Origin: Procambarus clarkii
Lineage: Eukaryota > Arthropoda > Malacostraca > Decapoda > Cambaridae
Direction: 5' to 3'
Length of the DNA: 64,000 nucleotides
Assembly: GCF_040958095.1 (NCBI RefSeq)
Contig: NC_091220.1
Coordinates: 20,225,667-20,289,666, forward strand
Under the pieces are notes generated by a model. It was given only the letters and a program-made list of their open reading frames with translations. It was not told where the DNA came from and did not search any database. Below, piece after piece: positions 4,263 through 64,000 of this stretch (positions within the stretch are counted from its first letter, which is position 1; every line of letters begins with the position of its first letter). The position numbers and the translations under genes are program-made.

Positions 4263-4377
4263 ACAGGCTAGACTGAGGAGGATGTATAGTCAAAATACCA
4301 GTTTCAGTAATTAATCTAGGTATTACCCATTTAACGGAAACGGTTAACATTTTGGATATTAAAATTAATTTTTTTTT

Positions 4378-5367: not shown

Positions 5368-7759
5368 TTATAGCTCACACTTTAACAGCGCTTCAGAACT
5401 TTTCGATAATTTTCTGAACATTAGCACCATACTGGAGGCAGAGCCTTCCAGGTCGACGGGGGCCACCGCAGAGCCTTCCAGGTCGACGGGGGCCACCGCA
5501 GAGCCTTCCAGGTCGACGGGGGCCACCGCAGAGCCTTCCAGGTCGACGGGGGCCACCGCAGAGCCTTCCAGGTCGACGGGGGCCACCGCAGAGCCTTCCA
5601 GGTCGACGGGGGCCACCGCAGAGCCTTCCAGGTCGACGGGGGCCACCGCAGAGCCTTCCAGGTCGACGGGGGCCACCGCAGAGCCTTCCAGGTCGACGGG
5701 GGCCACCGCAGAGCCTTCCAGGTCGACGGGGGCCACCGCAGAGCCTTCCAGGTCGACGGGGGCCACCGCAGAGCCTTCCAGGTCGACGGGGGCCACCGCA
5801 GAGCCTTCCAGGTCGACGGGGGCCACCGCAGAGCCTTCCAGGTCGACGGGGGCCACCGCAGAGCCTTCCAGGTCGACGGGGGCCACCGCAGAGCCTTCCA
5901 GGTCGACGGGGGCCACCGCAGAGCCTTCCAGGTCGACGGGGGCCACCGCAGAGCCTTCCAGGTCGACGGGGGCCACCGCAGAGCCTTCCAGGTCGACGGG
6001 GGCCACCGCAGAGCCTTCCAGGTCGACGGGGGCCACCGCAGAGCCTTCCAGGTCGACGGGGGCCACCGCAGAGCCTTCCAGGTCGACGGGGGCCACCGCA
6101 GAGCCTTCCAGGTCGACGGGGGCCACCGCAGAGCCTTCCAGGTCGACGGGGGCCACCGCAGAGCCTTCCAGGTCGACGGGGGCCACCGCAGAGCCTTCCA
6201 GGTCGACGGGGGCCACCGCGGCGTTCTTCTCTGAGGTCATTTTCATGGAAGCCCTCATCATCTCCAGCATCTGTCAATACCAATGTCGAGTAGTGCAAAG
6301 TTATGCTTATCGGCAATGCAATATAAATACCTAATATCTGGAAAATCAACAAGGTAAACCAAGATATAAATTGGTATTTACCTGTTAAAATTTAACCCTT
6401 AAACTGCACACCACATCATATGATGTGTGGGAGTACCACGCAAGATTTATAAGTTCCGCGGCTACACGGGGTTAACAGCAGCTTCCTCATGGCTCTTGTA
6501 AACAATGCCATTTAAAAAAAATCGTTGGCAAAACTTCACACTTATCTAGAACCTTTCCCCTCCCCCCCCCCCCCCCCCCCCCCTCCCCCCCGAAATAAAA
6601 AAAATTGTCACTACCGACCCTCCCCAGAACCTTGCCTCAACAGTTGCCTAACTGTTTTTAACGTTAGGTGAAGGCAATAGAAAATAGACACTAGACTACT
6701 TGTCCCCTCTTGTGATTCAAACTGAATTTCATACTGGGAGTCTAGAACGGAACCTAACTATACTACTAACTTCATTACCCCTTAAAGATTTTAAACAGAC
6801 TTTTCAACTATCCTATATATTGGCAACAAATAATTGAATTAATAGAATTTGAAAACTTGACAAATTTAATATTTATCCATCACTTAAGGTCCTCCTGAAG
6901 TACGGGGTACCAGAGTGATGGCAGACATTACAATTTTAAATAAGTACCGAATCTTACCGATATGCTATAAGCCTAACACTTTATAAAGAAAACTTTAGTA
7001 AGGACGGCGTTAGCAGTCCTCGCCTCAGTGAGGCGGGTCAGCCCCAGGACTGATAAGCAACATACCTTAAGTGCGGTGGGGCGAGTGTAACACTTTGGGA
7101 GTAGTACCTTGCACTGCCTCTCCCAATTGTCTAGCTTCCTACGACATACATCAACGTCGTTGATCACGTATACCTCTTGTGCAGCTTCTACCGCGTTGAG
7201 GCGCACCAACAACTCTTCTAGCTGCCGCTTTATTTCCTGGCCTACTGTTGCCAAGTCTGCCACACTCGCAAGTTCCAGCTCCAGCAGTCTGATCGCCGCG
7301 TTGTTCTCTTCCAACTGACTGGGGAGTCCGTCCTTAAGATCGTCGTGTTTATTCTTAGAGATCCTCAGCTGTACCCGATGGTCGTCCAAATATGAACAGA
7401 ATCGGTCACAACGATATATGAGCCTGTTCAATCTGACCTTGGGCGGCTCTATCAGCGACGGTAAGTTAATGCCGAGTTTTATTGAGTAGTCTTGAGGTTT
7501 AATAGAGTCTGGTGCCACTGACGTCGGCCTAAAACCTTTGTGTTTCCTGATAAAGGCCTCCGTTCTGCATTTAACTGGCAATTGAGCATCAGCTAAGACA
7601 CTGCCCTCAACACGACATCTCTGGCAAATGAACAGACCCTTCTGTACAGAATCTTTAGCACACTGTGAGCAGATTGTATGGCCACAAGGCAGATTACGCG
7701 GCCTCCGTAGAAGTTCATCGAATTTGTTTTTACAAATTGCGCAATTCTCAGGCATGTCG
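5368..7759 (-). CDS. RING-finger/coiled-coil protein with decapeptide-repeat tail (left paralogue)
   Basis: Two coding exons are visible: 7,759-7,066 (694 nt) and 6,270-5,368 (903 nt with stop), joined by a 795-bp GT-AG phase-0 intron. Counting from the ATG at 7,753-7,755, residues 5-47 form a C3HC4 RING (C5, C8, C24, H26, C29, C32, C44, C47). No B-box follows. Residues of about 95-205 are Leu/Glu/Arg-rich and look like a coiled coil. The second exon encodes about 13 variable residues, then 26 copies of AVAPVDLEGS, then a short tail. RING proteins of this kind usually act as E3 ubiquitin ligases, and RING plus coiled coil resembles TRIM proteins, but no substrate can be inferred. An acceptor lies just 5' of the ATG (TTGGACAG, then CGAC), so an upstream exon may supply the true start. 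The paralogue is at 20,651-24,297. The gene assignment rests on the same exon pair, phase and acceptor in both copies. Confidence 0.75.
5441..6220 (-). repeat. Coding minisatellite, 30 bp x 26
   Basis: Twenty-six head-to-tail 30-bp units (plus-strand unit begins gagccttccaggtcgacggg). They are identical in every base except the final base of the last unit. The period is a multiple of three, so the gene frame reads AVAPVDLEGS throughout. A second minus frame is also open (GGPRRPGRLC), as expected for a stop-free unit. Such uniformity means very recent expansion, homogenisation or an assembly effect. Confidence 0.95.
6556..6591 (+). repeat. Poly-C tract in RING-gene intron
   Basis: A nearly pure C run of about 36 bases with two T interruptions, inside the 795-bp intron. 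On the transcribed strand it is poly-G. Confidence 0.9.
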
Positions 7760-8340
7760 CTGTCCAATGGAAAATAAATTGGTTAGTTACTTCCCTAAAG
7801 CACCAGTATCAATAACATAATATCTCAGTATTGCTCTTATTCAGATCCAGGTCAGAAAAAAAAGATTTACTGAACTTGGACCAAAACCCTCAAGGCGTGA
7901 AACATTGTTATGAGGACTTTAACAAAGACCCAAATGGCTGGGGTAATATGTGACAGGTTGTACCACTGGATACCAGAATTAGGCTTCTTACAATGTTTAC
8001 AAAAACATTTTAAAGTAATTATAAGGAGTCATGGTGGGGAAAATATATACCACCATCAGTGGTGTTGGATAGTCAAAAGGCGCCAAGCATCACCGAGAAT
8101 ATCAATACGAGAAAGGAACAAGGCGAGCTATATTAAAAGGCATCAGATTCCCCAGGAGGCTAGAGTGAAATGACCTTAAGGGACATTAGAAAAGCAAAAC
8201 ATGCTTTAGTCTCTAAAGTCTGAACATTTCACAAGGAGGTGCATGGCTAAGAATAGAACACAGTTCGGACAATAAGGAGCAAAGCTGCGTTAAAGGACAT
8301 AATAAAGGTCACAAAGGTCATCGAGATGAGATATATATAC
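7760..8340. repeat. 5' flank of left RING exon, duplicated at 24,298-24,890
   Basis: Upstream sequence of the RING exon, either an intron or a promoter. For the first 220 bp or so it is about 95% identical to the right copy by eye. I could not pick out an upstream coding exon. The far part (8,040-8,330) carries a dispersed decapod-type repeat present in both copies. Confidence 0.7.
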
Positions 8341-8562
8341 AAGAGTTGTTACATTCTTGTACAGCCACTAGTACGCTTAGCGTTTCGGGCAGGTCCCTGG
8401 AATACGATCCCCGCCGCGAAGAATCGTTGTTACAACCAAGTACACATTTTACTGTCGAGTTAAACAGAGGCTACAGTTGAGGATTTGCACCCAGTAAATC
8501 CTCCCCGGCCAGGATACGAACCCATGACAAAGCGCTCACGGAACGCCGTTCCGCGTTATTAA
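8341..8562 (-). mobile_element. tRNA-derived SINE, family 1
   Basis: Reads on the minus strand as a tRNA-like head with a B-box-like GGGTTCGTATCC, a body, and a 3' module containing CCCGAAACGCTAAGCGTACT and ending ACAAGAATGTAA. Related copies: 9,832-10,170 (-), 25,060-25,305 (-) and 27,838-28,070 (+). Confidence 0.7.
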
Positions 8563-8849
8563 GGTCATTAAGTGACCTTTATTATTTTTCCACCGCCTAT
8601 TACAGCAACGAGTGCCAAAGGAAAAAGTTACCTTTAAGAAGGCAGAGTTTGTTACCTGTCACGTCATGCTTATGATCCTGCCAATGGTCGTGGACTGAGG
8701 AATGAATGATTGAGAAGAAATCTGAATTAGGACATGCAGTTTTAGGAAACTGGGAAAAGCGTGGATTGCTTCCTTAGTGGCCATATCCGAACGTTCGTTT
8801 AAGGTAATGCCAATGCGATTGGAAACCCAGCATTGTAATTAAGAAATGA

Positions 8850-9010
8850 AGGTATGAAGCCGGGAAGGCTGTGTAGCACCAAATGTGTGGAATAGCCCTA
8901 AATATCACTAAGGATGCTAATATAAGAACAGAAACGCATAAGCCGAACAATATCGAAAGTACCCCATTCACCAAGAATTCTATCGAGGGACAAGTAACCG
9001 CAAATTACTT
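8850..9010 (+). repeat. Dispersed repeat sharing GGGAAGGCT.TGTAGCACCA
   Basis: About 150 bp related to segments at 14,040, 14,490-14,570, 14,945-15,125 and 19,441-19,490, and more distantly to 8,040-8,170 and 24,640-24,740. It is non-coding, and the family is not recognised. Confidence 0.6.
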
Positions 9011-9420
9011 GAAGCAAGACAAGAATTCAAAACGGGAATTTTCTCAAATATAAATTATAATACATTAGCATATTGTGTATATATAGGCATAGGTTGGGTG
9101 TTGAGGTTCTGTTGGCGATTATTTGTAGTACGTGGTCGAAGCATTTACAGCGTTGTGGTTCGAATTCTCTAGTGAAGCACTTGTTCCGTAAATGTTCGAA
9201 CACCAGTTGGGAGTCGTGTGTAAACCGTTTTTCATTCATAAACAGGGGGTTTGGCGGGTGCATGGAATCACTTTTGGGTCTTAGGAGGACAGGCTGCACT
9301 GGAGGTGTGGGACTACTACGAGAAAGTGGGGAGAGATTATAGGAGATAACCGAAGATCAAGTTTGGTCAGAGCCCAATCTTCCATCCCTATCAAGACTCA
9401 GGGAGAGAGGGGGGGAATGG
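9011..9420. other. Intergenic, unassigned
   Basis: Short overlapping open frames on both strands and no convincing protein. The base composition resembles transposon-derived DNA. No partner was found within the window. Confidence 0.4.
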
Positions 9421-9424
9421 GTCC

Positions 9425-9650
9425 CTAATTGCCGGCCGCAGGAGCCTGGTTGGTTTTAGTCCCACAACGTAACTTTAGCCTGAAACGCACAAGAAGAAAG
9501 TTACCCGCCCAAACGCGCCACCTATTTATATTCACATCTAACCTACGCTTGAAACAATCTAGTGATCCACCGACTACCACGTTATCCAGTACTCTGTTCC
9601 ACATATAAACAACAGTTTCCAAAAAAGTTTTTACCCAGATTTTTAACCAA
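9425..9650 (-). mobile_element. LINE ORF2 C-terminal remnant
   Basis: The minus strand reads VVYMWNRVLDNVVVGGSLDCF followed by KRRLDVN. This is the tail commonly seen at the C-terminal end of arthropod LINE reverse-transcriptase proteins (W-N-x-L-P-x-x-V-V, then S-x-x-x-F-K-x-x-L-D). Only the end is present. Confidence 0.55.
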
Positions 9651-9831
9651 ATCTAAACTTATCGCCATCTCCATTTTACAAGTCAACTTGCCATAGCGCC
9701 GTCATACTATTCTACCATCAACTGCTGTACACAAGCTGTATTGAAAGTACATTAAGTTACTATACTGAAGTTGTCGCCGTAGTAACGATCGTTACACCCA
9801 TGAGCCTAATTTTTTTTATGAAACATACAAA

Positions 9832-10170
9832 AGTTCTTACATTCTTGTACAGCCACTAGCACGCATAGCGTTTCGGGCAAGTCCTTAATCCAATGTTTCC
9901 CGGAATACGACCCGCTAAATCGTTTAACAACCAGGTACTCAATTTTTACTGTAGGTAAACACAGGCTACGTTAATTCACGTTCAAGTATGTTTATTGAGA
10001 CAAGAAATGCATCTCAAAGGGATAGAGTAGCTTAGGCTATTTCTACCTCCCCTTCCCTAGCTACGCTAATGATTGACGCCCAGTAAATCCTCCCCGGCCA
10101 GGATATGAACCCAGGACAAAGGGTTCGCGAACCACCAGGCGAGTGTCTTACCAACTACAAATGTATCACT
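9832..10170 (-). mobile_element. tRNA-derived SINE family 1 with nested insertion
   Basis: Same element and same position relative to block C as 25,060-25,305, so the two are duplicates. This copy has about 95 extra bases (roughly 9,977-10,072, running from TTCACGTTCAAG to TACGCTAATG) that the other lacks. That points to a secondary insertion after or around the duplication. Confidence 0.65.
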
Positions 10171-10179
10171 CATTAACTG

Positions 10180-10946
10180 GCCTCGTAGTGGGACGCGAAC
10201 TTGGGTAGAAATTAAAGGAAAAACTGGGAGAAAACTAGAATAGTTGATGGGGTTAGGAGAACTATGGAAGATTACCCTTACACGCAGTTGGAGGGATTGT
10301 AAACAATGAACACCGAGGCAGGCGACATAAAACAAATGTGAAGAAAGAAATGGAACAAAAATCAATTATGTGCCCGCGGGAAACGAAACATTCACGTGAG
10401 AGCAGATACCACATTTCTGAGAGTGTGAAGAAGCAGACGGCGGGCAGCAGAGACGTGTGTCACAGGCAGAACCAGACAAGTGAATGAGCAGTCTGGCTGG
10501 CTGGCTGGTGGAGACCCTGGTGGGCTGGAGAGCCATCTGGTGGCGGTCAGGTGCATCACGGGGGGGGGGGGGGGGTTAACTGGCGACAATAATTGCCTTG
10601 TTTTCCCTCAAGGTTACTAATTTCCTTCAAGAGTTGCTGGTTTGGTGCGCTTATACTTTCTACTCATTTATTTTGGAAGGTTTTATCCCCTTACCTTGCG
10701 TTGATTCCGGGGGTCAAGGTCCCCTAGGCCCGGTCTCTGACCAGGCCTCCTCGATAAGCCTGGCTCCCTGTATGCTCGAGTGGGTTTTACCATTATTATA
10801 ATTATTTTTATAACATAAAACTTTGTCTTCTCAATTGATTTGTCAAGACTTGCAAAAAATAAAAAAATATTACTCTTTTTTTTTAACCCACCAAGAATGT
10901 AAATAATATGATAAAAACAATAACAATTTTGATTTATAAAACATAG
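10180..10946. repeat. Dispersed block C, copy 2
   Basis: Near-identical to 1-752 over the E-box region, CTGG run, CCATCTGGTGGCG (10,533-10,545) and poly-G tract. It drifts in the AT-rich part. No coding frame is supported. Confidence 0.8.
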
Positions 10947-11044
10947 ATTGATATGATAGAGAACTCATAGGTGAACAATATACCATATATAAAATCTCTA
11001 ATACGAAGAGTATGGCTTCCCTAAGTCTGTGAGGCTCTCTTACC

Positions 11045-11350
11045 TCACAGACAACTAGCTCTCTTGCTCATCCATTCCTTTCTCCACCAGACACATTTTG
11101 TGCAATACAAAGGTGTCATTATTGTATGGCGTCCTCCCGAGCTATGAACATGTTGTAACAATCATCTACAACATAACATTGTCAGCCCAAATGATGTTGA
11201 CTTCAAGACATGACATGAATTTGTTTGTCACTACCACACGAATATGTGTTAAAAACAATTACTTGTATGGGGCAAGTTAACTAAATACAGTAACTATGGT
11301 GCTAAATACAACCCCATATTCAATCCTAGTAAATGTGCTGTCGTTGATTT
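11045..11350 (+). mobile_element. Retroelement reverse-transcriptase remnant, duplicated at 25,869-26,170
   Basis: Matches the start of 25,869-26,430. The distal part reads YGAKYNPIFNPSKCA, like the F-N-P-x-K-C segment after the catalytic motifs of reverse transcriptases. It is short and decayed. The element class is not determined. Confidence 0.4.
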
Positions 11351-11357
11351 TAACTCG

Positions 11358-11610
11358 GGACTAAACATGTTTATTGCTCGGTATGGTCACTTGTCCAGTT
11401 GTGGGACCCGCCTGACAGGTGATTGTTAGGGGTGACAATGGCGAGGCACCAGTGATGGCGAGGGATTCAAAGGCAGGAATGAATTTAAGGACATACAAGA
11501 ACAGCTGTAAAGCAGATGCGATGGTGATGTGTGACCAACAGCTGATAATTAACGATGACGTCACTGAAGGTGACATCGGCTATGGTGAAAAAAGGCGTGG
11601 TGGTGATAAG
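11358..11610 (+). repeat. Block A core, extra copy
   Basis: About 250 bp nearly identical to 4,421-4,660 and 15,440-15,670. It includes the perfect TGACGTCA at 11,556-11,563. It lies directly after the block C/RT-remnant segment and lacks the outer part of block A. Confidence 0.85.
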
Positions 11611-11639
11611 TAAAGGCTGGTGATATTGTGTTAACATAA

Positions 11640-12480
11640 TGAATTAGTCATTGATTGTTGATCGTCCGAGGGACGAGGTGTTAACGTAAGAATTTAATTA
11701 AGGAGGGTTGCTGGAGTTACCAGTAACGCCATTAGTCATTGTAATGTCATTGTAGACTACTGGTTTGATTGCATTTACAACTGCTATTGCAGGGGAGGGC
11801 TGCAAGGAGCATAAAGTAACTGATAGGTGGTTACAGGAGACTCGTCTCCTAACCTATCTTGTTGTTGCATTAATAATTATAAACTTAGTATGTTTTAGTT
11901 GATTTCATCCTCTGTGAACACCGAGTACTGTTCAGGTTAGTTCATTTATCCTGCACAACGTGATTGCAGGAAGGATCCTGTTACTCCTGGCTGGTGTCCA
12001 GCTGTCGTAAAGGTGTCATAGGAAGGATTTCGAGTAACGTTAGTTATATTTTTGTTGTTGTAGTTAGTAGTTTGTTGAATAAACTATGTAAAGTTGAACA
12101 CTGTCTTTTCGTACACTCCCACACTATTAATGATTTACATGTGTTCTGCCACGTTACTTGAAATTATTATTGCTAATAATCTGAGACTGCTTCTTAAACT
12201 TCGAGCTGAATTCATAGCACCACACAACAAACAAATATGTTGTGAGAACTCATGACCTACTTGTTAGATTCGCTCCAGCGATGTGCAAAAGTCGACGGCC
12301 TAGTGAAAGGGATTTCAAACTTTTGAGGTCTCGGCGTTTGCTCGATCCCAGTAATTTTTATGGTCTCTAGAGTGGAGTATTGAGTTGCTTACTACACTTA
12401 GCATGTTAGCCAAGCAGTTCCTTCCTCAAAAAGCCCATCTAGACTTTCAGTTTAAAGTTAATAGATGTACTAAAAAAAGA
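11640..12480. other. Intergenic, nothing recognised
   Basis: AT-rich sequence with scattered short frames. I see no gene, no repeat partner in the window and no RNA gene. Confidence 0.5.
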
Positions 12481-12484
12481 GAAC

Positions 12485-12778
12485 ATGATGAAAAATTTCA
12501 CAACTTGGGAAAGCTAAATTGAGAAGGGGAGAGGTGGTGATAGCGTTCCAAGAACCACATCAGACAGACATTGACTACACGCTTAAAGAGCTTGCAGACG
12601 CAACTCATGAGAGAAATGGGGCAGAAGTCTTCAGGGGATGACCCCCTAGAGAACCAGGTTTCCTAGTAGGAAGAACCACGGCCTCAAGCCAGTCCTCCGG
12701 GATTGACAACGACTCCCAGACACGGCTATAAACACTCAGTAAATACTGGAACGTGCAGAGAGGGAGATGGCAAAGCAT
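12485..12778 (-). mobile_element. LINE ORF2 reverse-transcriptase fragment
   Basis: The minus strand reads IPEDWLEAVVLPTRKPGSLG and then, after a frame change, SCVCKLFKRVVNVCLMWFLE. These match the RT segments W-L-x-A-x-V-x-P-I-x-K-P-G and S-C-x-C-K-x-x-E-R-x-V-N-x-R-L-x-x-x-L-E of I/Jockey-type LINEs. It lies just downstream of ORF1 material (12,990-13,880) with a SINE between, so both probably come from one collapsed element. Confidence 0.75.
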
Positions 12779-12784
12779 CTCAAT

Positions 12785-12985
12785 GAATCACACAGATCAC
12801 ACTAACGTGATGCATCAAATGAACAAATCCACAAGGACCGTGACGAGGATTCGAACCTGCGTCCGGGTGCATCCCAGACACTGCCTTAATCGACTGAGCT
12901 ACGACAGGGTAAAAGGGTTGAAACCGAAGTTCTACTGAACTTACTGGATCCCGTAGCCTCTCCGAGGCACAACCCAGGCTTTTAC
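12785..12985 (-). mobile_element. tRNA-derived SINE (GTAGCTCAGTCGATTAAGGC type)
   Basis: The minus strand has an A-box-like TAGCTCAGTCGATTAAGG and a B-box GGTTCGAATCC about 40 nt apart, then an unrelated tail ending in CACGTTAGTGTGATC. It lacks a full tRNA cloverleaf end and is followed by the same tail as other copies (23,090-23,230; 27,008-27,060; 30,262-30,470), so it is a SINE and not a tRNA gene. It sits between LINE ORF1 and ORF2 pieces. Confidence 0.8.
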
Positions 12986-12989
12986 ACAA

Positions 12990-13880
12990 CCATTTTAGAT
13001 CAAAGTATTTGGTCCACGAAGCGGGACCAAACAAAGCTTGATACGCATCAGTACGGGGAGGAATCGAGCAAGTGCAGCTGTGGCGCGGATAGCATCGAGA
13101 ACTCCCAGAGAGGGGTTAAAAGGTACAGTAGTCACAACGAGACTGAGCCGTGCTAGGGGACGAGGTGGTCACCACTGGGGGGCTTATGGCTCGACCCAAC
13201 CACAGAGGGAGGGAGGGGAGCCAAGGGGAGTAGTCAGGAGGGTCAAAGGAGGAGCAAGGTCGGGGCCCAATGCAGCGGGAGCTACAGGGCCTGGTCTTCC
13301 AATACAGGCCGACTCTCGGGCTTGTGGTCGCCCACCCCACGAGCCTGAGAGTACAAGAAGAACGATCACAAAGACGAGAAGTAACACTCATTCTCTAATG
13401 TGCCCGCACACCCACCATGGAGCCACAATTAGAGGCAGGACACCCAACAGGAAGCTATCGCCGATCATGCCGGGGCCCCCCAGGGGTGCGTTAATACGCC
13501 CCACAATCGCCACCTTAAGAACCGTCTGTCCGTCGAGATCGGGTTCAATGACGAAAGAGGGATTGATAATAAAAAGTTCCCCTCGCTCGGGACGTCGGGT
13601 ACTACAGTTCTAAAGGTGCAAGAGTATGCCTCAAACACCCGGGCGTCAAAACAAAAGGACAAAATAATCCTCAAAATAGGCACAAGGTCAGCGGGAAATG
13701 ACAACGAGAAAGGAGAAGAGGGGGGGGGGGGAAGAGAAAAACTAAAACGATAAAGGAAAAGGTGTCCAGCAGAGTTAGAGAGGAAAGCAGCAGGAGCACA
13801 AGGGTACAAAAGGACAGAGGTCTTAAGGAGCATCACACTCCGGCAGCCGTCCACCAAGCCCCTCACGGCAACAACGAGCT
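12990..13880 (-). mobile_element. LINE ORF1 start and 5' UTR, copy 3
   Basis: Matches 1,335-1,850 and the start of the ORF1 frame in copies 1 and 2, including the segment encoding FGPASW. It contains the proline-rich ORF1 N-terminal region and GC-rich 5' sequence. The knuckle region is absent. Confidence 0.7.
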
Positions 13881-14029
13881 GGACAGGGAGGGGGTTTACC
13901 TTATACGTAGAGGCAGCTTATTTTATTTGAGGAATGCTCGGCTGTTTCCTCTACATTTATCATGGAACAAATTTGTGTCAAAGACCTCTTTCTGTGACAA
14001 TTTGGCTGTGTAACAATCAGCAAGTAATT

Positions 14030-15130
14030 ATAGTAATTATCAAAAGGCACCAAGCTGGGAAGGCTATGTAGCACCATTGTAATAAACCAATTTTTTTTTT
14101 TAACAAATAATGCACCTGTGAGAAAAATCCTGTCAGCTGTAAAAAATTGATGGTTGTATAAATAAAAAATATAATGAAAGAAATATTACTGGTTTTATTT
14201 TTATCCTATCTTTTTGTACTATACAGTATATTCAAAGAAGTGAAAAATTGAGAATTCACAATTTAATGAATGATTCAAAAGAAATAACTTGCATATCAAC
14301 ATGAGATCTTTATGATCCATGGTTAACATGATTTAATAAGGATAATATTGGTAATAATACAAACTATAATTTAAAATCATTATTACCGATATTTTTGAAT
14401 TAAAAAGATTAGGTACACACAATGTGCTGTTACCCTATTCTATATGAAAGATTACACAGCGTAGATAAAAAAAAACTAGGTACAAGTAAGTAATTATCAA
14501 AAGAAGGCACCAAACCGGGAAGGCTATGTAGCACCATCAAATACGCAAAATAATCAGAGGGGAAACTAGGTACAAGTTCATCTAATACTCCCATCTCGTA
14601 GGATGGTTAGGCATACATGGAATCAAGGGAGAAAATAGCCTCAATACATAAAACAAATCAACTGACTAAACACGATTTTCACAAGAGGTAAGCACTGAAT
14701 TATGAAAATATAATATAAACTATTATCAGTTTCTACAAGACTACTCAATGTATTTCTTAACAAGCTTAGGTATACACAACAATGTACTGCTTCCCTATTC
14801 TGTATGAAGGACCATATAGTCGATCATAAACCAGCTACACGATCATCCAACATCCCCACCTCACAGGACGGCCAGGCATACATGGAATAAGGAGAGAACA
14901 AGAAATGTAAGGCTGATCTATTTGCCCCCACTAGCAAGGGAGTAATTACCAATAGAAGGCACCAAACCGGGAAGGCTATGTAACACCATCAAATGTGCAG
15001 AATAATCAGAGGGCGCTAAATATTACCAAGGATGCCAATACGAGAACAAACGCACAAGGCGAACGATATCAAAAGTATCCGAGTCGCCAAGAATACTATC
15101 GAGGGACAAGCGACCGCGGGGGATGGTCGG
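14030..15130. repeat. Cluster of dispersed repeats
   Basis: Three copies of the GGGAAGGCTATGTAGCACC element (14,040; 14,490-14,570; 14,945-15,125) separated by two related stretches (14,425-14,660 and 14,760-14,900, both with CCCTATTCT.TATGAAG and GGCATACATGGAAT). This is an internal tandem duplication of about 430 bp. No gene is seen. Confidence 0.65.
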
Positions 15131-15396
15131 AAAGCAAGACACGCTCGTTCCGGAAGTCTACGGTTGGTTTGGGAAGAGGATGGTTGGGAAGAACTCTACC
15201 ATCCACTCAGGGCGGCCCCTCACGGACGACCCCCTCCAGCGGGGTGGTCCGATGACTCGCAAGGACCCTACATGGTGCCCTTTTGCACGTACAACACCCA
15301 AAGAGGGCCAGGAGAGGGGACAAAGGCAACCCTCACCGGTCCCAGGGGGTGTACGTGAGCCCCTCACCATGCCAAGGCTACACCACGGAGCGGTTT
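15131..15396. other. Unassigned GC-rich stretch
   Basis: Open in three plus frames and one minus frame with low-complexity translations. I found no recognisable protein, and it is probably repeat-derived. Confidence 0.4.
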
Positions 15397-15840
15397 ATTG
15401 TGTAAAATACATATTAAAATCTAGCCATAAATGTCATTAGGAACTTAAAATATTTATTGCTGGGTATGGTCACTTGCCCGGTTGTGGGACCCGCCTGACA
15501 GGCGAGTGTTAGGGGGCGACAATGGCGAGGGATTCAAAGGCAGGAATGAATTTAAGGACATACAAGAACAGCTGTAAAGCAGATGCGATGGTGATGTGTG
15601 ACCAACAGCTGATAATTAACGATGACGTCACTGAAGGTGACATCGGCTATGGTGAAAAAAAGGCGTGGTGGTGATAAAACAGTTAAGGCTGATGATAGTG
15701 TTAATAATAGTGATAGAGAAGATTACACTAAATAGTTACATTACACTAATATGGATGCAATGGAACCAACCCAGACCAAGAAAGAAAAAGTATTACAATT
15801 TGGAATTTCCTGCAGGAGTTTTAATATGTCTGACAATACC
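15397..15840 (+). repeat. Segmental-duplication block A, copy in right unit
   Basis: Matches 4,378-4,910, with TGACGTCA at 15,623-15,630. In the left unit the next sequence is block B. Here a 3.4-kb segment with a gene intervenes. Confidence 0.8.
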
Positions 15841-15946
15841 TAACAGCTGTAAACAAAGGAGAGATGTTGAAAGCCTTCCTTTGAGCTGTGCTACATAAGC
15901 GTATATAAATTACATTGCAGGCCTATACAATGTACTAAATCACCGT

Positions 15947-15952
15947 TTTATT
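15947..15952 (-). terminator. Candidate polyadenylation signal of the 16,097-19,166 gene
   Basis: AATAAA on the minus strand, about 145 nt after the TAG at 16,097-16,099. The distance suits a short 3' UTR. Confidence 0.4.
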
Positions 15953-16096
15953 TTATACAAATCCACTCGCTACGTCATTCCATTGTGTAAACTGGAATAA
16001 AACTATTACATTTGCGAGTCCCAACAAAATTGAATTACAAATAAAAGGATGAAGCATTGTGGTGACATTGCTGGTAAGTAGGATAGCAGTGTAGAC

Positions 16097-16750
16097 CTAA
16101 AATGGCAGCACAATACCACGGTCGAGCACCAACACCTCTGGGAGATCAGTGGCCCGAGCAGCCGTCTTCAACACATCCGGACCTCCCACCGCCCCATCAA
16201 TTACATTCGCTGAAGATGTGTCAGGCATCGGGCAGTTATTAAGCGAGATCCCGAACTGCAACCAGTTTCCAGTGTCCGGCCGCACCCATGCGTACACAAC
16301 CCAATCCATGGGTGGCTTCCCATGCTGCCCTTCCACGGCGGGTCGTGGATCATGTGTGTCATCATTAGGCAACCTGTCGTATTCCCCAACTACCACATAC
16401 TCTCCGTGTTCTTCAGTCCCTCCAGCTTGATGAACCTCACCAGTATGAAGCGATATGAACCGTTTGCCCAGTGCAGTGTCAGGACTGGTGCATATTTCGA
16501 CCTCTTCCATTGCAGCTCTGTCACGTCCAGTGAATTGACACGCCATGGTGGAGGAGTGGTCCAGCAACTGCGCAATGTCTCTGTCCTGAATACAATATTA
16601 AATTAGTAAGAAAAGAATTTTTTTTGTGTGTTTAATGTTGTTAGAAGCCCCTTTCCCTGGCGTGTCACTTAAGGATAGCAGCAAAGATTAACCTGTTAAG
16701 TAATCTCGCCAGACCGTCATTACTTCCTAACTACCGAGAGCCAAGATCAG

Positions 16751-16795
<45 letters not shown>

Positions 16796-19166
16796 CACTA
16801 AGACTTGGAAAGCCTGGGAAGTAGAGATCTTTCCCAAAACGAGGGAAAAGACGCCCGACTGACAGCCTCACCCAGAGCACCTTGTGGCACGCAAATAACA
16901 GAAAACTTTAAAATGGATAAATGAAGCACCCTCGGCCAACCAAACTATCTAAAGGGCCTCTTTGAACCCAGTCACCCTATTTTGGGCCAAAAATGAAAGA
17001 TACGGCGGCAAACTAAGAAGCCCTCTGGGACAAGTGAAAAATGGCTTCTGGACACTAACCCAATAACCAATACCGAGGCAAAAACTAAAATCTTCGACCG
17101 AATGGGGGAAGAAAAACACCTGCACGTTTGACACTTCGTCCACGTTAATGGTGAGGAGGGCTCAGAGGATCAAGAACCACCAGAGTCCAGCCCCTTCAAC
17201 CTTAAACCCCAGCAACCTCTCCCCCCCCCCCCCAACATTCCAGACAATGAACTGGAAAGTTGACAGCGAGTCAAACAACCAAGCCTGAAGTGAGCCGATC
17301 ATCATGCAAAACCACGTGAACCATACTGCGAGCCCGACAGACCGCCCAAAGGACCTGAGCCAATTCGAGTTTGCAAAACCTCGAGTCTGGAAATGAAGAG
17401 GAAGGCAGCGTCACACGATTAAATTCTGAAAACCTCAAAAAAGTGCCAACCCCCACCAACAGTCCGGGGAGGACAGTACAAGCCAACCCCCACCAACAGT
17501 CCGGGGAGGACAGTACAAGTCAACCCCCACCAACAGTCCGGGGAGGACAGTACAAGCCAGCCCCCACCAACAGTCCGGGGAGGACAGTACAAGTCAGCCC
17601 CCACCAACAGTCCGGGGAGGACAGTACAAGTCAGCCCCCACCAACAGTCCGGGGAGGACAGTACAAGCCAGCCCCCACCAACAGTCCGGGGAGGACAGTA
17701 CAAGCCAGCCCCCACCAACAGTCCGGGGAGGACAGTACAAGCCAGCCCCCACCAACAGTCCGGGGAGGACAGTACAAGCCAGCCCCCACCAACAGTCCGG
17801 GGAGGACAGTACAAGCCAGCCCCCACCAACAGTCCGGGGAGGACAGTACAAGCCAGCCCCCACCAACAGTCCGGGGAGGACAGTACAAGCCAGCCCCCAC
17901 CAACAGTCCGGGGAGGACAGTACAAGCCAGCCCCCACCAACAGTCCGGGGAGGACAGTACAAGCCAGCCCCCACCAACAGTCCGGGGAGGACAGTACAAG
18001 CCAGCCCCCACCAACAGTCCGGGGAGGACAGTACAAGCCAGCCCCCACCAACAGTCCGGGGAGGACAGTACAAGCCAACCCCCACCAACAGTCCGGGGAG
18101 GACAGTACAAGTCAGCCCCCACCAACAGTCCGGGGAGGACAGTACAAGTCAGCCCCCACCAACAGTCCGGGGAGGACAGTACAAGTCAACCCCCACCAAC
18201 AGTCCGGGGAGGACAGTACAAGTCAGCCCCCACCAACAGTCCGGGGAGGACAGTACAAGTCAGCCCCCACCAACAGTCCGGGGAGGACAGTACAAGCCAG
18301 CCCCCACCAACAGTCCGGGGAGGACAGTACAAGTCAGCCCCCACCAACAGTCCGGGGAGGACAGTACAAGTCAGCCCCCACCAACAGTCCGGGGAGGACA
18401 GTACAAGTCAACCCCCACCAACAGTCCGGGGAGGACAGTACAAGTCAGCCCCCACCAACAGTCCGGGGAGGACAGTACAAGTCAGCCCCCACCAACAGTC
18501 CGGGGAGGACAGTACAAGCCAGCCCCCACCAACAGTCCGGGGAGGACAGTACAAGTCAGCCCCCACCAACAGTCCGGGGAGGACAGTACAAGCCAGCCCC
18601 CACCAACAGTCCGGGGAGGACAGTACAAGTCAACCCCCACCAATAATAATTCCAGGGAATCTAAACCAAACTTGCCAAAACTGAGACCACGTGCGGATGC
18701 TGCCCAAAACGCCACATTGCACAAGTGAAGACCAATATTAACCAAACCCAGTGAGCGGGATCTTGGCTCCCGGCAGATCCGGGTAGCCTCAGACCTGGTG
18801 TGATTCCCCAAGATACTGTAATCACTGTTCAAGCTTGAACGCATCCCATAAAACATTCCATCTTGCTCGAGATAGAATGTATAATACAAGTTACCTTGAA
18901 TGTAGCAGGAAAAGCGGTCAGAGGCTGCTTCTCGAATGCATGAAGATACATTTTTCCTCCTCGTGATGTTATCCTTGCCGAGTAAAACCCGCCATGAAAT
19001 TCCTTGACAGAGAAGACCCGGCCAGCCACCACCAAGCTCTGGAGAGGCCGGCTGATATTACGAAGATGTTCGATCTGTGGATAATCGGCTGCATTATTAC
19101 CCGAGAACATTGTGAAGTCATTTGCAGACGGCATCAAGCCAATTATCATCAAGACAAGGATAGTAC
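16097..19166 (-). CDS. Unrecognised, probably secreted protein (at least two exons)
   Basis: Two exons fit together: 19,166-18,895 (acceptor TTTTAG, donor AAG/GTAACT) and 16,585-16,097 (acceptor TATTCAG, stop TAG). The intron is phase 0 and spans 2.3 kb. The first shown exon starts with two bases of a split codon, then TILVLMIIGLMPSA, a hydrophobic run like the core of a signal peptide. The true start should therefore lie in an exon further upstream that I could not find. The visible protein is 90 + 162 residues. Landmarks are FTMFSGNNAADYPQ, GGFYSARITSRGGKMYLHAF, PMDWVVYAWVRP and the C terminus VLDRGIVLPF. It has few cysteines and no motif I can name. Long open frames with matching splice phases, and non-repetitive composition, argue for a real host gene. 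The left duplicated unit lacks it. Confidence 0.6.
16754..16799 (+). repeat. (TA)n microsatellite
   Basis: About 22 TA dinucleotides in the intron of the 16,097-19,166 gene. Confidence 0.95.
16830..17270 (-). repeat. Dispersed repeat, inverted partner of 2,045-2,475
   Basis: Reverse-complement match to 2,045-2,475. It is intronic, and leads into a poly-C tract (17,221-17,234) and the 37-bp minisatellite. Confidence 0.7.
17447..18643 (+). repeat. Minisatellite, 37 bp x about 32, with higher-order structure
   Basis: Units of 37 bp (core caacagtccggggaggacag) that differ almost only at two sites, C/T and A/G, in the spacer before the CCCCC run. The left-central part is about a dozen identical units. 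The right part (from about 18,100) repeats a six-unit pattern of variants twice, giving a 222-bp higher-order repeat. The period is not a multiple of three. The long open frames across it on both strands are by-products of a stop-free unit. It lies in an intron. Confidence 0.95.
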
Positions 19167-19227
19167 CTAAAACACGTGTGGTTATGTCATTCCTGAATTA
19201 TCCTTTAACCGCAATTTGTCCTGTGTA

Positions 19228-19370
19228 TTGTCAACATCATTAGGTTGATGTGTCAACAATGTTGGCGTCACAGAGGGTTAAAGACTTGGGTGGCTAGGGT
19301 CGCCAGGGCTCCCATCTGGTGGCGGGCTAGTGGTGCTAACTTCAATTTGGACCTAAACGCTCTTTATTTT
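19228..19370 (+). repeat. Segmental-duplication block B, copy in right unit
   Basis: Matches 4,915-5,045, with CCATCTGGTGGCG at 19,312-19,324. Confidence 0.75.
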
Positions 19371-20495
19371 GTATTTTTACATGCAAGCATGCAATTAAAT
19401 AGAATAAAACAGACAAAACTAAACATAGCAAACTACAAGTAAGTAATTATCAAAAGAAGGCACCAATCCGGGAAGGCTATGTAGCAAATTGCAAATACAC
19501 CGGCCTGAAGGGCCGACAACAACAAACCAATAAGCACATCGCATGACAGACCATACAACAACAACAACAACATACAACCTAAAGCTCAAAACAAAAGTAC
19601 AATGTAAAATGCTCAAACCCCAACCCAATAACGTAATTACAGGAATAGGACAAGGCAAAACAAGGCGTCGGCCTCGTTAATGACAAACTAAGAGGCACTA
19701 GCACAGAAGATCAAGAAAATACATGAAATACATTACATGCAACGAAAAACAAAAAATTAAATACATAAACATGGATAAAAAACAACAACAATACATAATT
19801 TGAACAAAAACGGGCAAGGACAAGCAAGCAGCCATAGGGGCACTTAACATCACACAAACAAACGCACAGATGGTACATCAACACACCTCCCAGAAATTTT
19901 TCTCTCGGGAACCTCACATTGAACTCCTTATAGTGCAACCACCCCACAGCGTCGTCTTTATCCACCGGGGAAACTCTTAGCATCCGGAACCTCTGAAACA
20001 GACCCACAAACTGGGGACCCATATGGTATCACATCCGCGCCCCCACACTAAGGGAAGCCTCGCAGCACGACATGCCGCCGCATTCTCAGACAACGGAAAC
20101 TGGGCAGTCTGACGCCAGTGACCCGGTGGCATCCACAGACGCCGGCAACAGATCCCCCGAGACTCCTCCACAGATCCGCATGGGAGACGGAGTGGCAGAG
20201 GACAACACCACATGGGCACATGCGGCAACGTTCACACAACCAGACACCGACATGGTTCCCCTTCCAGCGAGCATCCTTCAATTTCACCACCAGGCCACGG
20301 CCTGCACCAGTATCCTCACCATCTATCCAGGTGAAGCCAGCACCCACCCCCCCTACTGCAGAGCCCCCCCCCCCCTGCTGGAGAAAAAACAGAAGGCACG
20401 TTAGAACCACAGGCACCGCCATCAGCAGGGACATGGACCTCCGCCACCACCAACTGCGTAGACCGCGACACATCCGGAACCACTCCATCGATACC
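19371..20495. other. Unassigned, repeat-rich
   Basis: Starts with a copy of the GGGAAGGCTATGTAGC repeat (19,441-19,490). The part 19,900-20,490 is GC-rich and open in several frames on both strands, as in decayed LINE ORF1 or 5' UTR DNA, but I cannot match it to a family. The homology to the left RING unit resumes near 20,495. Confidence 0.4.
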
Positions 20496-20650
20496 CGAGG
20501 CTCAGGGAGCCTCTTAAAGAAGCTCTACCAGAGAAAATAAACAAGACTCACTTATTGCCCAACAATTCCACAATATTTACACAATTTACCAGCAAAGTCA
20601 ACGGTGACAGTGAACAAATAAGAAAATTGTGAAATTTGCGAGACTGAATA

Positions 20651-23600
20651 TTAATTATAACTCACACTAAATGTTAACAGCGCTCCAAATATATCATCAG
20701 CAATTGGCTGAACTTTAGACACACTGCTGGAGGCGGAGTCTTCCTGGTTGACGGGGGATACTGTAGTCTCTTCCTGGTTGACTGGGGATACTGTAGTCTC
20801 TTCCTGGTTGACGGGGGCTACTGGAGTGTCTTCCTGGTTGACGGGGGATACTGTAGTCTCTTCCTGGTTGACCGGGGCTACTGGAGTGTCTTCCTGGTTG
20901 ACGGGGGCTACTGTAGTCTCTTCCTGGTTGACGGGGGCTACTGTAGTCTCTTCCTGGTTGACGGGGGCTACTGCGGCCTGCTTATCAGAGGTTGCCTTCA
21001 GGGAAGCCTTCGCATTCTCCAGCCTCTGTCAATACCAATGTCGAGTAGTGCAAAGTTATGCATATCGGCAATGCAATATAAATACCTAATATCTGGAAAA
21101 TCCACAAGGTAAACTTGGATATAAATTGGTAATAACCAATCACGATTTAAACTTGCATGTTAGGGAAAACTTTTTTGATAGGCCTAGTAAACATTTCGGG
21201 AAACGTGCTTTGCTTCTACTCTACTGTTTAAAATCACAAGTAATTCATTGTAATTCTAGTCAAAACTGGGAACATTTCACCCCCCCCCCTCCTTCCCAGA
21301 GTTGGTGGTCAGGAGAAGGGGCCTAGGGTGTGAGAACTGGTAGTGAACATAGTACATCCTGGACTGGGTCCAGGCACCGTAACTGGCGCCTGAAGCCCAC
21401 AAGGGGATAGCTTCGTGCTTTAAGATTCTATTAGTGCTCACAGAACCGAGAACCCGCAGAATTCTAAAAAAAAATCCAACATGGGACAAGAATTGCTACA
21501 CAAGGGGTAAAAACCGAACTGAAGTACCAAGGCCAAATTGTTAACGGTTATCCCATTGGTAGAGGAAAGGGAGACTGATGAAGGGAAGACTTTACACCGC
21601 GGGAAACGGACGGACGGAGAGAGGGAGGGAGGGAAGGAAGGTGCCTAGACGACTGAGGTGCTGAAAGTATTTATCACCATGGGGACAGTACTATGGGACA
21701 AATATCCCAGATGGTATAATGGCAAAATATAAATTATGCACACACGAGGAAACAAGTGTGTGACGAACGGTATCGTCTCAAGATGGAACTGTCCGCTTTT
21801 ATTCTGTCAATTTAGGTGGCTATCTAGGGGTCTAGGCGCCCGCCCCGGGGTAGTGACGATGGACAGCCTGCTGCAGGAACGAGGACTAATACTTCCCTAG
21901 ACTTCATTTCGGCAGATAATCTGCTTGAAGCAGTCAAAGCGACGTCCACCAGGATCTTGCCCCACATCCCCAAGGCTGCCAGTCACCAAGCAGCAGCCAA
22001 ACTCACCAGTCTGCTGACAAAGGTCAACAATGCTCCCAGAACCACTGGATCATGGCACGATCTCCTATTTGGGAATGCATGCCTAGCATTACCGCCCAGG
22101 AGAGAAGTTATTAGCAACCTCAGTAATCAGGGCTCTTGATGAATTCCCCAGAGCAGACAACCTGGTCCGCCTCCCCCCTCGTGCCAAGAACTCCAGCCGA
22201 AGGTCGACCAATAATAACTCGCCTGAGAACCACAAAATGAGAGCACAGATCACCAGGAAAAAAAAGAGGGCAATACCACAGGTGCCATCAGAATCATGAC
22301 CAGCGATGACACTATTGCCCCCCCAGGAACGCCACGACAGCACAGGCTCTACTAGACAAAACACCCACCCAGAGCCCCCGACAGCAGCAGGGATCCCCAG
22401 GAAAACAATACCGGCATGGAACCCTTGACTGTTCGAGAATCTGAGGTGTACAAAGCAGCCATGTCTTTCCCAACAGGTTCAGCAGGGGGCTTTACAGGCC
22501 TAAGACCCCAGCACATCAAATAAATGCTGAACCCGGTGCTTAGAGATGCTGCAAAGGACCTTCTAGTGGAACTTACCAGATTCTCCAATATGTGTTTGGC
22601 AGGCGACATCCCTAAGGACATCAGGCCTGTCTTATGGAGCAGCACTCTGCTCTAAAGAAGAATAGGGGAATCGGGCCCATTGCCGTTGGCAACACCCTCC
22701 GACGCCTCGTAGCTAAAGCTGCAGTGAGAGCTATCAGCCAGAAAGCAGCCACCTTGCTGAAACCTCATCAACTCGGGATCCCCCTAGGCTGTGAAGCTGC
22801 AGCACATGCAGCACGGGCTTGCATTGCTGATCTCACCAGAAGGCACTAGTAAAGTTTGACTTTAAAAAAGGCCTTCAATCAAGTCAGAAGAGACGCTGTC
22901 CTCAGGGCTGTACACAACCAGTTCCATCCCCTTTACCCATTCATCCGATCGTGCTACACTATAAATTTATATTTTATAAAATAAGATGGGCAATAGAAAA
23001 TGGGAAACACGCCAAACCATTTGTACCTCCATGGATTCAAACCCAGGATTTCAGATTGCGAGTCCAGAACGATACTGTACACACACAAATCCCAATAGCG
23101 TGATATATCAAATTAATAAATACACAATGGCCGTGACGAGGGGTAAGGCTGTCTAATAAGGCGAGTGTTTGATCATCCAAGATGTAAGTTCGAACCCTTA
23201 TCACGGCCTTGTGGATTTATTCTTCGGAACTAACTGTACTACCAACAAATACCCCTCAAGAATTTAAACCATGACTAATAAAGTCTAACCTTTATATTGG
23301 CAATACTATAACTGAATTTATAGATTTCGAAAACTTAAAACTATAGAATATTGATCCATCACTCAAGGTCTATGAAGCACAGGGATCCAGAGTGATGGAA
23401 GACATGAAAATTAAAACTACCGAATCTTAGATATTCTAAAAGCATAGCAATTTATAAAGAAAACTTCAGCAAGGACCGCGTTAGCAGTCCTTACTTCAGC
23501 ACTATAACTGAAGTTATAATATGTATAGTGTGTACAGTATGTAATTACTGAAGTAAGTACTTCAGTAAGGACCGCGTTAGTAGCGGTCTGATAAGCAACA

Positions 23601-24297
23601 TACCTTAAGTGACATTAAGACAGTGCGGCCGTTCCTGAATAGTTCCTTGCCCTTCGCCGCCCATTGCTCTAAACGCACATTACATTTATCAATGTCCTTT
23701 ATGATCACGTATACCTCTTGTGCAGCGTTTAGCGTGTCGAGGCGCACCATCAACTCTTGTAGCTGCCGCCTTGTTTCCTGGCCTACTCTTGCCAAGTTTG
23801 TCCCTCTTTTAATCTCTTGCTCCAGCAGTCTCATCGCCGCGTTGTTCTGTTCCAACAGGCTAGAGAGTCCCTCCTCAAGTCGGTAGTGTTTAATCCCCCA
23901 GTGCCTCAGCAGGGACCGGTACTCTCCCAAACTTGTGACTAGTTTGTCACAACGTTCTGTTAACTCGTTCAATCTGAGCTTTTGCTGCTCCACCTGCAAC
24001 CGTAAACTTTCGCCGACTTTAATTGAATTGTCTTGCGGTTCAACAGATTCTGGTGCCACCGACGTCGGCCTAATATCAGTTTGTTTCGTGATAATGGCCT
24101 CCGCACTGTTAACTGGCAACTGAGCATCAGCTGCGACACTGCGCTCAGGATGACAGCTTGGGCAAAAGAACAGACCCTTCAGTAGAATAGCTCTAGCACA
24201 TTGTGAGCAGATTGTATGGCCACAAGGCAGATTTCGCGGCCTCCGTAGAGGTTCATCGAATTTGTTTTTACAAATTGCGCAATTCTCAGGCTTGTCG
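20651..24297 (-). CDS. RING-finger/coiled-coil protein with decapeptide-repeat tail (right paralogue)
   Basis: Exon 24,297-23,604 (694 nt, exactly the length of its partner) encodes a C3HC4 RING (CAIC...CGHTICSQC...CPSC), a linker and a Leu/Glu/Gln-rich coiled coil, ending at LK with donor GTATGT. Exon 21,025-20,651 (acceptor TTGACAG, phase 0) starts RLENAKASLKATSDKQA, then eight decapeptides of the type TVAPVNQEET, then SKVQPIADDIFGALL and stop. Amino-acid identity to the left paralogue is about 58% overall by eye, but the RING is almost unchanged. The left copy's ATG is AAG here, so this exon is internal and the start lies in an unidentified upstream exon. The 2.6-kb intron has grown by insertions (21,880-22,970; 23,000-23,230). 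A strong GTGAGT donor just before the stop (20,660-20,665) could instead splice on. A role as E3 ligase is family knowledge. A role in immunity is inference. Confidence 0.7.
20738..20977 (-). repeat. Coding minisatellite, 30 bp x 8
   Basis: Eight 30-bp units in the RING gene frame reading (V/T)(A/S)PVNQE(E/D)T(T/P). Unlike the left copy the units differ from one another (GATACTGTAGTC, GCTACTGGAGTG and others), so this array looks older. Confidence 0.95.
21880..22970 (+). mobile_element. Reverse-transcriptase fragment in RING-gene intron
   Basis: Plus-strand pieces read GPIAVGNTLRRLVAKAAV, LLKPHQLGIPLGCEAAAHAA and LVKFDFKK. These are the RT segment R-P-I-A-V-G-N-T-x-R-R, the Q-L-G-V segment and the beginning of the catalytic block. 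An upstream piece reads MPHIPKAASHQAAAKLTSLL. This looks like a broken non-LTR element antisense to the host gene. The clade is not settled. Confidence 0.65.
23000..23230. mobile_element. tRNA-like SINE pieces, head to head
   Basis: At 23,030-23,085 there is a B-box-like element in reverse (GGATTCAAACCCAGGA), related to 51,030-51,195. At 23,090-23,230 a SINE tail and head in opposite orientations meet around the CCGTGACGAGG motif, with GTTCGAACCC as B box. Confidence 0.6.
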
Positions 24298-24890
24298 CTG
24301 TCCAATGGAAAATAAATTGGTTAGTTACTTCCCTAAAGCATCAGTATCAATAACAGAATATCTCAGTATTGCTCTTATTCAGATCCAGGTCAGAAAAAAA
24401 ATGATTTACTGAACTTTGACCAAAACCCTCAAGTCGTGAAACATTGTTATGGAGGACTTTAACAAAGGCCCAAGTGGCTGGGGTAATATATGACAGATTG
24501 TACCACTGGATACCAGAATTAGGCTTCTCTAAAATGTTTAAACACTACTGAAATTCACCAGGATGAGTAAGTTTTTGTAAACATGGTAAGAAGTAATAAG
24601 GAGTCGTGCTGGGGAGAATATGTACCACCATCAGTGTTGCTGGATAGTCAAAAGGCGCCAAGCATCACCGAGAATATCAATACGAGAACAAAGGAACAAG
24701 GTGAGCAATATTAAAGGCATCAGATTCACCCAGGAGGCTAGAGAAGTGACCTTAAGGGACATTAGAGCATGTTTTGTTTTTCTGAAGTCTGGACATTTCA
24801 CAAGGAGGTGCATGGCTAGAAATGGAACAGTGCAGTTCGGAAAATAAGGAGCAAAGCTGCGATAAAGGACATAATAAAGGCCACAAATAA
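24298..24890. repeat. 5' flank of right RING exon
   Basis: Counterpart of 7,760-8,340. It is about 95% identical by eye over the part next to the exon. No upstream coding exon was identified. Confidence 0.7.
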
Positions 24891-24929
24891 AGATTATTAA
24901 GCGACCTTTATTATTATTAAAGATTTCCC

Positions 24930-25022
24930 GGTTGCAATTCTTTTACCCTATCGTAGCTCAGTCGATTAAGGCAGCGTCTGGGATCCTCTCTGACGTAGGT
25001 TCGAATCCTCGTCACGGCCTTT
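24930..25022 (+). mobile_element. tRNA-derived SINE head
   Basis: A-box TAGCTCAGTCGATTAAGG and B-box GGTTCGAATCC as in the 12,785-12,985 SINE, here on the plus strand and followed by CTCGTCACGGCC. Confidence 0.75.
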
Positions 25023-63960: not shown

Positions 63961-64000
63961 GTAAGTCAAGAAATTATTAGCATTTCATTTTATATCCCAA

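Follow-up and report, generated by a model that had tools for sequence, protein, structure and literature searches.

A large RING gene family in the crayfish Procambarus clarkii with a repeat-tailed, fast-changing branch

Introduction

The TRIM (RBCC) ligases, and in particular vertebrate group 2 with TRIM5, combine an N-terminal C3HC4 RING with a helical, coiled-coil region and a variable C-terminal part, and group 2 is made up of duplicated, fast-changing members. The finTRIM proteins of teleost fish carry a B-box and a B30.2 domain, and RNF4, after which one type of SUMO-targeted ligase is named, carries several short hydrophobic-acidic motifs before its RING. The fast-evolving group 2 TRIMs are reported as absent from invertebrates (PMC2533329), and finTRIM is introduced as a sizeable subset of TRIM genes whose diversity arose through duplication and positive selection (PMC2657112). 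In Procambarus clarkii, the RING protein PcTrim has been reported to restrict white spot syndrome virus (PMC10165819). Here, we describe two minus-strand RING genes, left and right, in one stretch of the P. clarkii genome (the window: 64,000 nt, contig C71:20225667-20289666; coordinates are window positions unless a contig is named) and the family to which they belong. The gene family is real and large, and one of its branches is fast-changing and carries repeat tails. By their sequences, the two window genes and a third copy nearby appear to make up this branch, a small, duplicated one within the large RING/helical family.

The crayfish proteins resemble TRIM ligases, group 2 above all, in having an N-terminal C3HC4 RING, a helical and probably coiled-coil region, a variable C-terminal part and duplicated, fast-changing members. 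Unlike TRIMs, the family shows no B-box that could be found and the right tail no known C-terminal domain; the tail is instead a short motif turned tandem. Large size and diversification by duplication recall finTRIM, from which the family is set apart by description rather than by sequence comparison, the B-box and B30.2 not having been found here. The left tail has a loose likeness, occurring 26 times, to the hydrophobic-acidic motifs of RNF4, but the crayfish motifs are C-terminal and not before the RING, the right copy is without the hydrophobic residue, and SUMO binding is a candidate property only.

Results

Both window genes have the same layout, which agrees in coordinates and frames with the initial annotation of this DNA: a 694-nt RING exon (exon A) with 231 open codons in one frame only and the donor AAG/GTATGT, followed by an intron and a tail exon (exon B; 903 nt left, 375 nt right) joined in phase 0 (Table 1). 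The annotation had described two genes of the family, which turned out to be far larger, with at least hundreds of copies in the genome sequence. Two similarity and two pattern searches were made over the 4.03 Gb and 2308 contigs of the genome. A 34-nt pattern from large-family copies gave 129 + 143 = 272 exact matches genome-wide against 0 + 0 for the reversed control; these are sequence matches, the intactness of each gene not having been individually checked. From the protein search the best 150 of 1374 first-look candidates were scored, a sample that favours intact copies, and all 150 matched the family, 148 of them without a stop. Exon A was compared in 39 entries from 36 distinct places, representing 29 distinct exon sequences: it was stop-free, preceded by AG and followed by AAG/GT in 39/39, and no other frame was open in any. 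All eight zinc ligands were invariant in 15/15 aligned copies, and Pfam placed zf-C3HC4 above its cut-off in each of the seven exon A proteins scanned. Degeneration also occurs, one copy (L013, C7:17546000-17555999) having in-frame stops and having lost the start of the RING. No relatives were confirmed in viral contigs by a search that reaches close relatives only, and no published description of the family was found in titles and abstract openings, which is weak evidence that it is unpublished, as many journals lie outside that coverage.

The distribution of the copies bears on the possibility that the family is an amplified or selfish gene, such as an ampliconic or meiotic-drive element, and that its fast branch reflects intragenomic conflict and not pathogen defence. 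Among the best 150 scored matches, 98 lie on four of the 2308 contigs (C14, C35, C37 and C38), and among 17 C35-type loci six match the large-family copy L033 at 99.7-99.9% identity over 3.7 kb, the rest being less alike. Such crowding would suit an amplified element, but the exons keep their splice signals and the large-family pairs tested are under purifying selection, and we consider this explanation quite improbable. Many of the pattern matches listed are also on C15.

PcTrim is apparently present in the same genome. One of its primers, an 18-mer, has a single genome match, on C57 (0.12 expected by chance), about 2 kb before a stretch on the same strand that looks RING-like by eye; a 5.8-kb segment of C57 did not contain the other three primers. 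By-eye differences in this RING-like stretch and in exon layout led us to set PcTrim aside as a member of the family, and C57 is not among the best 150 scored family matches.

The window branch departs from the large-family copies in its codon substitutions. Omega was estimated by codon likelihood, for 20 pairs in all, and the trio consisting of the left, right and third C71 copies gave 1.89 (p = 0.0013), with branch values of 4.04, 1.44 and 1.95 that do not differ significantly (p = 0.26). The codons after the first 50 gave 1.85 (p = 0.004). Right versus third reached 2.82 (p = 0.00075) and left versus right 1.86 (p = 0.016, or 0.017 in a separate run); by simple count, the ratio of nonsynonymous to synonymous divergence (dN/dS) of the latter pair was 1.43 with a bootstrap range of 0.99-2.14. 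A large-family trio, in contrast, gave 0.47 (p = 0.0005), which is purifying selection, and ten large-family pairs ranged from 0.39 to 0.57, seven of them with p < 0.05. L010, one of three relatives on contig C10 (L010, L011 and L012), gave 0.50 against L033 and 1.26-1.54, not significant, against the C71 copies. The third codon position was the least changed in all three trio pairs, with differences of 39/38/22 by codon position for right versus third as against 22/18/32 for L033 versus L016 of the large family. Splitting at codon 34 gave 2.21 after and 0.27 (p = 0.22) before the cut, which was chosen post hoc and is not relied on.

Variable sites in the trio numbered 16/50 in the RING, 15/38 in the linker, 37/51 in helix 1, 19/45 in the loop with helix 2 and 34/47 in helix 3; the corresponding counts in nine large-family entries were 14/50, 21/38, 16/51, 6/45 and 20/47. 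Helices 1 and 3 of the trio together held 71/98 variable sites against 50/133 elsewhere (Fisher p = 1.6e-7), with helix limits taken from a weak structure model. In exon A outside the zinc ligands, change exceeds the neutral rate and is densest in the predicted helices 1 and 3. That a tail of variable length sits where TRIM proteins have their recognition domain, as first proposed, stands, but it is not the sole variable part.

The tail itself, as the annotation had described, is built of 30-bp units; there are 26 identical ones on the left and eight varied ones on the right. All six frames run through the left array, so its openness proves nothing, and the frame was established by relatives instead. 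The third copy, at C71:20221094-20221795 and 3.9 kb left of the window, has an exon B with two units, and each C10 relative has one with a single unit. In all six of these C71 and C10 copies a CAG acceptor joins exon B in phase 0, stops interrupt both remaining frames, and five of the six share a similar terminal peptide whose final residue is preceded by SY or NY. Since the third copy has two units and the C10 relatives one, we read the frame of the tail exon as real and the repeat as having arisen in the C71 branch; the ancestral tail most likely had one unit, which multiplied there. The left units (AVAPVDLEGS) are unlike the right ones (TVAPVNQEET), whose type is also that of the first unit in the third copy, and this suggests that the left and right arrays expanded separately.

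A short motif, approximately PVxLxDS, is present once in the last exon of each C10 relative. A SUMO-interaction pattern occurs in its strict form once, in the third copy, and in a loosened form 26 times in the left copy, once each in L010 and L011, elsewhere, and not at all in the right copy and L012; such short patterns easily match by chance.

The joining of the repeat exon to the RING exon could be questioned, as a stronger-looking acceptor, TTTTCCAG, lies 67 nt upstream and its use would give a hydrophobic tail. The final 77 nt of the intron (6271-6347 versus 21026-21102), which contain this acceptor and the 67 nt after it, are 98.7% identical between left and right, against 77% in the preceding 48 nt and about 71% in the exon just after. 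From that acceptor, however, the right copy meets a stop ahead of its repeat and L010 meets one within 12 codons, whereas the repeat frame stays open and has a similar end in five of the six copies. The upstream acceptor was rejected for exon B because the resulting frames stop, and we regard its use as very improbable indeed.

Outside the C71 and C10 copies, exon B was found in 19/19 C35-type entries (18 distinct places) and in 0/14 other large-family entries (12 distinct places) within 1.5-5.3 kb downstream. Some 300-1200 nt past exon A, the C35-type loci, L052 included, have the start of exon B with its acceptor tandemly repeated at a 119-bp period, in 2-6 copies in 17 of 19 entries and a single copy in two. 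The copy number varies between near-identical genes, and every additional copy supplies an alternative acceptor; in L052, reading on from any copy but the last leads to stops. L046 lacks one base at the exon B acceptor, which breaks the phase. Because this other subfamily repeats the start and acceptor of exon B, duplication in the tail may be a recurring mode of change.

The class assignment was approached by domain and structure searches. Pfam placed zf-RING_UBOX and zf-C3HC4 above cut-off in both window genes and listed no B-box in any of seven exon A proteins, at expectation values (E) up to 1 in one scan and 0.1 in another, which bears out the earlier description of a C3HC4 RING without a B-box. 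As no B-box was found, membership in TRIM was rejected and the family is not filed there; descent from TRIM through B-box loss is possible, because TRIM-like proteins with an incomplete signature are reported to exist (PMC3503706). No known C-terminal domain (SPRY, NHL, MATH or filamin) was found in right exon B, where one Pfam hit had E 0.6, below the cut-off. With right exon A as query, the best single-stretch match in a PDB sequence search was the RING of TRIM32 (5fey, E 4.5e-7); RNF4 came first through a two-RING construct only (two stretches of 19 bits each), and nothing beyond the RING matched at E 0.1. A structure model from two sequences was too poor, with a predicted local distance difference test (pLDDT) score of 48.8, and one from 15 sequences, with three long helices after the RING, found no fold match in PDB at E < 0.001 (best 0.094). 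Heptad excess was reached by 13, 20, 67, 1 and 0 of 1000 shuffles in five copies. Of the RING/coiled-coil family first proposed, the duplication, the RING and the helical region hold, and the predicted helical region is probably a coiled coil.

Table 1. Features of the two RING genes, in window positions
Feature	Position	Strand	Remarks
Left exon A	7066..7759	-	RING and helical region, 231 codons; AG before, AAG/GTATGT after; Pfam RING above cut-off
Left RING, first to last zinc ligand (codons 6-48)	7615..7743	-	Eight C3HC4 ligands invariant in 15/15 aligned copies
Left intron, 795 nt, phase 0	6271..7065	-	Final 77 nt 98.7% identical to right copy
Left exon B, 300 codons and stop	5368..6270	-	Homologous exon also in each C10 copy and the third C71 copy
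Left array, 26 identical 30-bp units AVAPVDLEGS	5440..6219	-	
Left C-terminus	5368..5439	-	Shifted out of the frame used by the five other exon B copies
Right exon A, RING and helical region, 231 codons	23604..24297	-	Open frame; Pfam RING above cut-off
Right RING, first to last zinc ligand	24153..24281	-	Pfam and alignment
Right intron, 2578 nt, phase 0	21026..23603	-	
Right exon B, 124 codons and stop, ending in DDIFGALLTFSVSYN	20651..21025	-	
Right array, eight variant 30-bp units, TVAPVNQEET-like	20735..20974	-	
Left gene upstream flank	7760..8315	-	93.5% identical to 24298-24887 (507/542 aligned bases)
Right gene upstream flank	24298..24887	-	Partner of 7760-8315

Other features of the window include a 37-bp minisatellite of 32.4 copies between the two RING genes (17445-18643), open in all three plus-strand frames, and a pair of opposite-strand repeats (24929-25021 and 12833-12926, 88% identical) which by eye resemble a transfer RNA-derived short interspersed element. 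A multi-exon Nop14-like gene occupies 52655-63964 on the plus strand, three stretches of it matching Pfam PF04147 above cut-off. On the minus strand, 774-1604 and 3566-4267 are two related open frames with a cysteine/histidine cluster, by eye like the gag of a retrotransposon without long terminal repeats; a Pfam scan of these two frames gave no match at E 0.01.

Discussion

The gene models are drawn from genomic sequence, and from them we infer the roles proposed here. The reading that we put forward, with about even confidence, is that these are RING ligases in a duplicated branch and that their helices and repeated tail keep up with a partner, perhaps a pathogen, that itself changes fast. 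Since a RING domain of this kind should recruit an E2 enzyme, ubiquitin ligase activity is probable for the protein, and the helical region would allow self-association and partner binding. By sequence, the 30-bp motif segment has multiplied to 2, 8 and 26 units in this branch, and such multiplication would convert one weak binding site to a multivalent one. The substitution counts show conserved zinc ligands in an exon A that otherwise outpaces neutral change, for which the simplest cause would be conflict with a partner that keeps changing, for example a virus or another parasite. A role in immunity, as the annotation suggested, is a candidate one. The family, hundreds strong, might even be an invertebrate counterpart of the vertebrate restriction-factor TRIMs, its target recognition tuned by selection on the helices and by tandem copying of a motif, with one gene having a 26-site multivalent tail, possibly SUMO-binding, beside sisters of eight or two sites; this last proposal we hold to be unlikely.

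A number of observations weigh against the proposed conflict, beginning with the integrity of the genes. The left gene has shifted out of the shared frame after its array and lost the common C-terminal peptide, so that of the tail first described for it the array stands and the end is damaged. Close to the beginning of exon A the left and third copies have an ATG where the right copy, for which no start codon was found, has an AAG; the expected upstream coding exon was looked for and not found. Since large-family copies have K or N there, the idea of the right AAG as a lost start was dropped, and in the left and third copies the ATG looks, from the alignment, like a gain. The acceptor of C71 exon A also differs in phase from the CAG/GAT acceptor of the large family, which, with the missing ATG of the right gene, makes the start of the protein uncertain. 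For these reasons (the frameshifted left C-terminus, the start codon not found and the differing acceptor phase), either window gene, or both, may be non-functional or on the way to it. The right units, moreover, have Q at the place in the motif where other copies have L, and the 15-sequence structure model is weak (mean pLDDT 61.5, with the three long helices mostly at 65-76).

The statistics carry their own reservations. Omega was significantly above 1 in only two of the 20 pairs, left versus third gave 1.50 (p = 0.084), and right versus L033 of the large family gave 0.43. In the first 50 codons of the trio, which hold the RING, omega was 2.18 (p = 0.19), and no purifying selection was seen. 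The C10 pairs gave 1.15 (L011, L012) and 1.08 (L010, L011), not different from 1, and as these too lie near 1, constraint may be relaxed across the whole C10/C71 side.

Taken together with the perfect homogeneity of a left array open in six frames and with the degenerate copy on C7, the damaged left end, the start codon not found on the right, the RING codons of the trio and the C10 values would fit a different account, in which a working family has left decaying duplicates on C71 that diverge by drift under relaxed constraint, and the repeat is an ordinary minisatellite in an old exon. Drift, however, predicts an omega of about 1 and not the trio's 1.89, and simulated random change with the same number of changes brought a stop in 2981-2994 of 3000 runs, whereas the three C71 exons are stop-free with all eight zinc ligands kept and their splice signals intact. 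We give this account a minor but appreciable chance of being right.

The pattern of divergence between the copies raises a further objection. Left and right exon A share 77.9% of their DNA and 56.5% of their protein sequence, and identity falls from 96-98% to about 78% inside the RING exon. Their noncoding parts are uneven (93.5% upstream, 81.7-90.4% in the intron and 82.8% beyond exon B), and for right and third the values are 85.7% in exon A, 90.6% upstream, 94.5 and 95.3% in the intron and 86.1% on the 3' side, the two copies being alike in some stretches and strongly different in others. Because noncoding divergence is uneven and identity mosaic, the copies have likely exchanged sequence, and some of their divergence may have been imported. 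The excess of change could then stem not from selection on this gene but from large-family members outside the sample, through gene conversion or unequal exchange with them, an origin that the drop within the RING exon, the spread of the noncoding parts from 82% to 94% and the patchy likeness of right and third would all suit. Imports from copies under purifying selection should, however, differ most at third positions, where the trio differs least, and the pairwise omega values are independent of any tree; we consider such an origin unlikely.

If transcripts confirm the genes, the RING-ligase family of P. clarkii would number at least hundreds of copies and include a branch that evolves faster than neutral. 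We know of no animal RING-ligase family of hundreds of copies with such a branch, family sizes not having been compared. The branch would offer an independent, B-box-free candidate for a group 2 TRIM-like role in an invertebrate, and the C71 genes with 26, 8 and 2 units, together with their one-unit relatives, would constitute a natural series on motif number versus binding strength.

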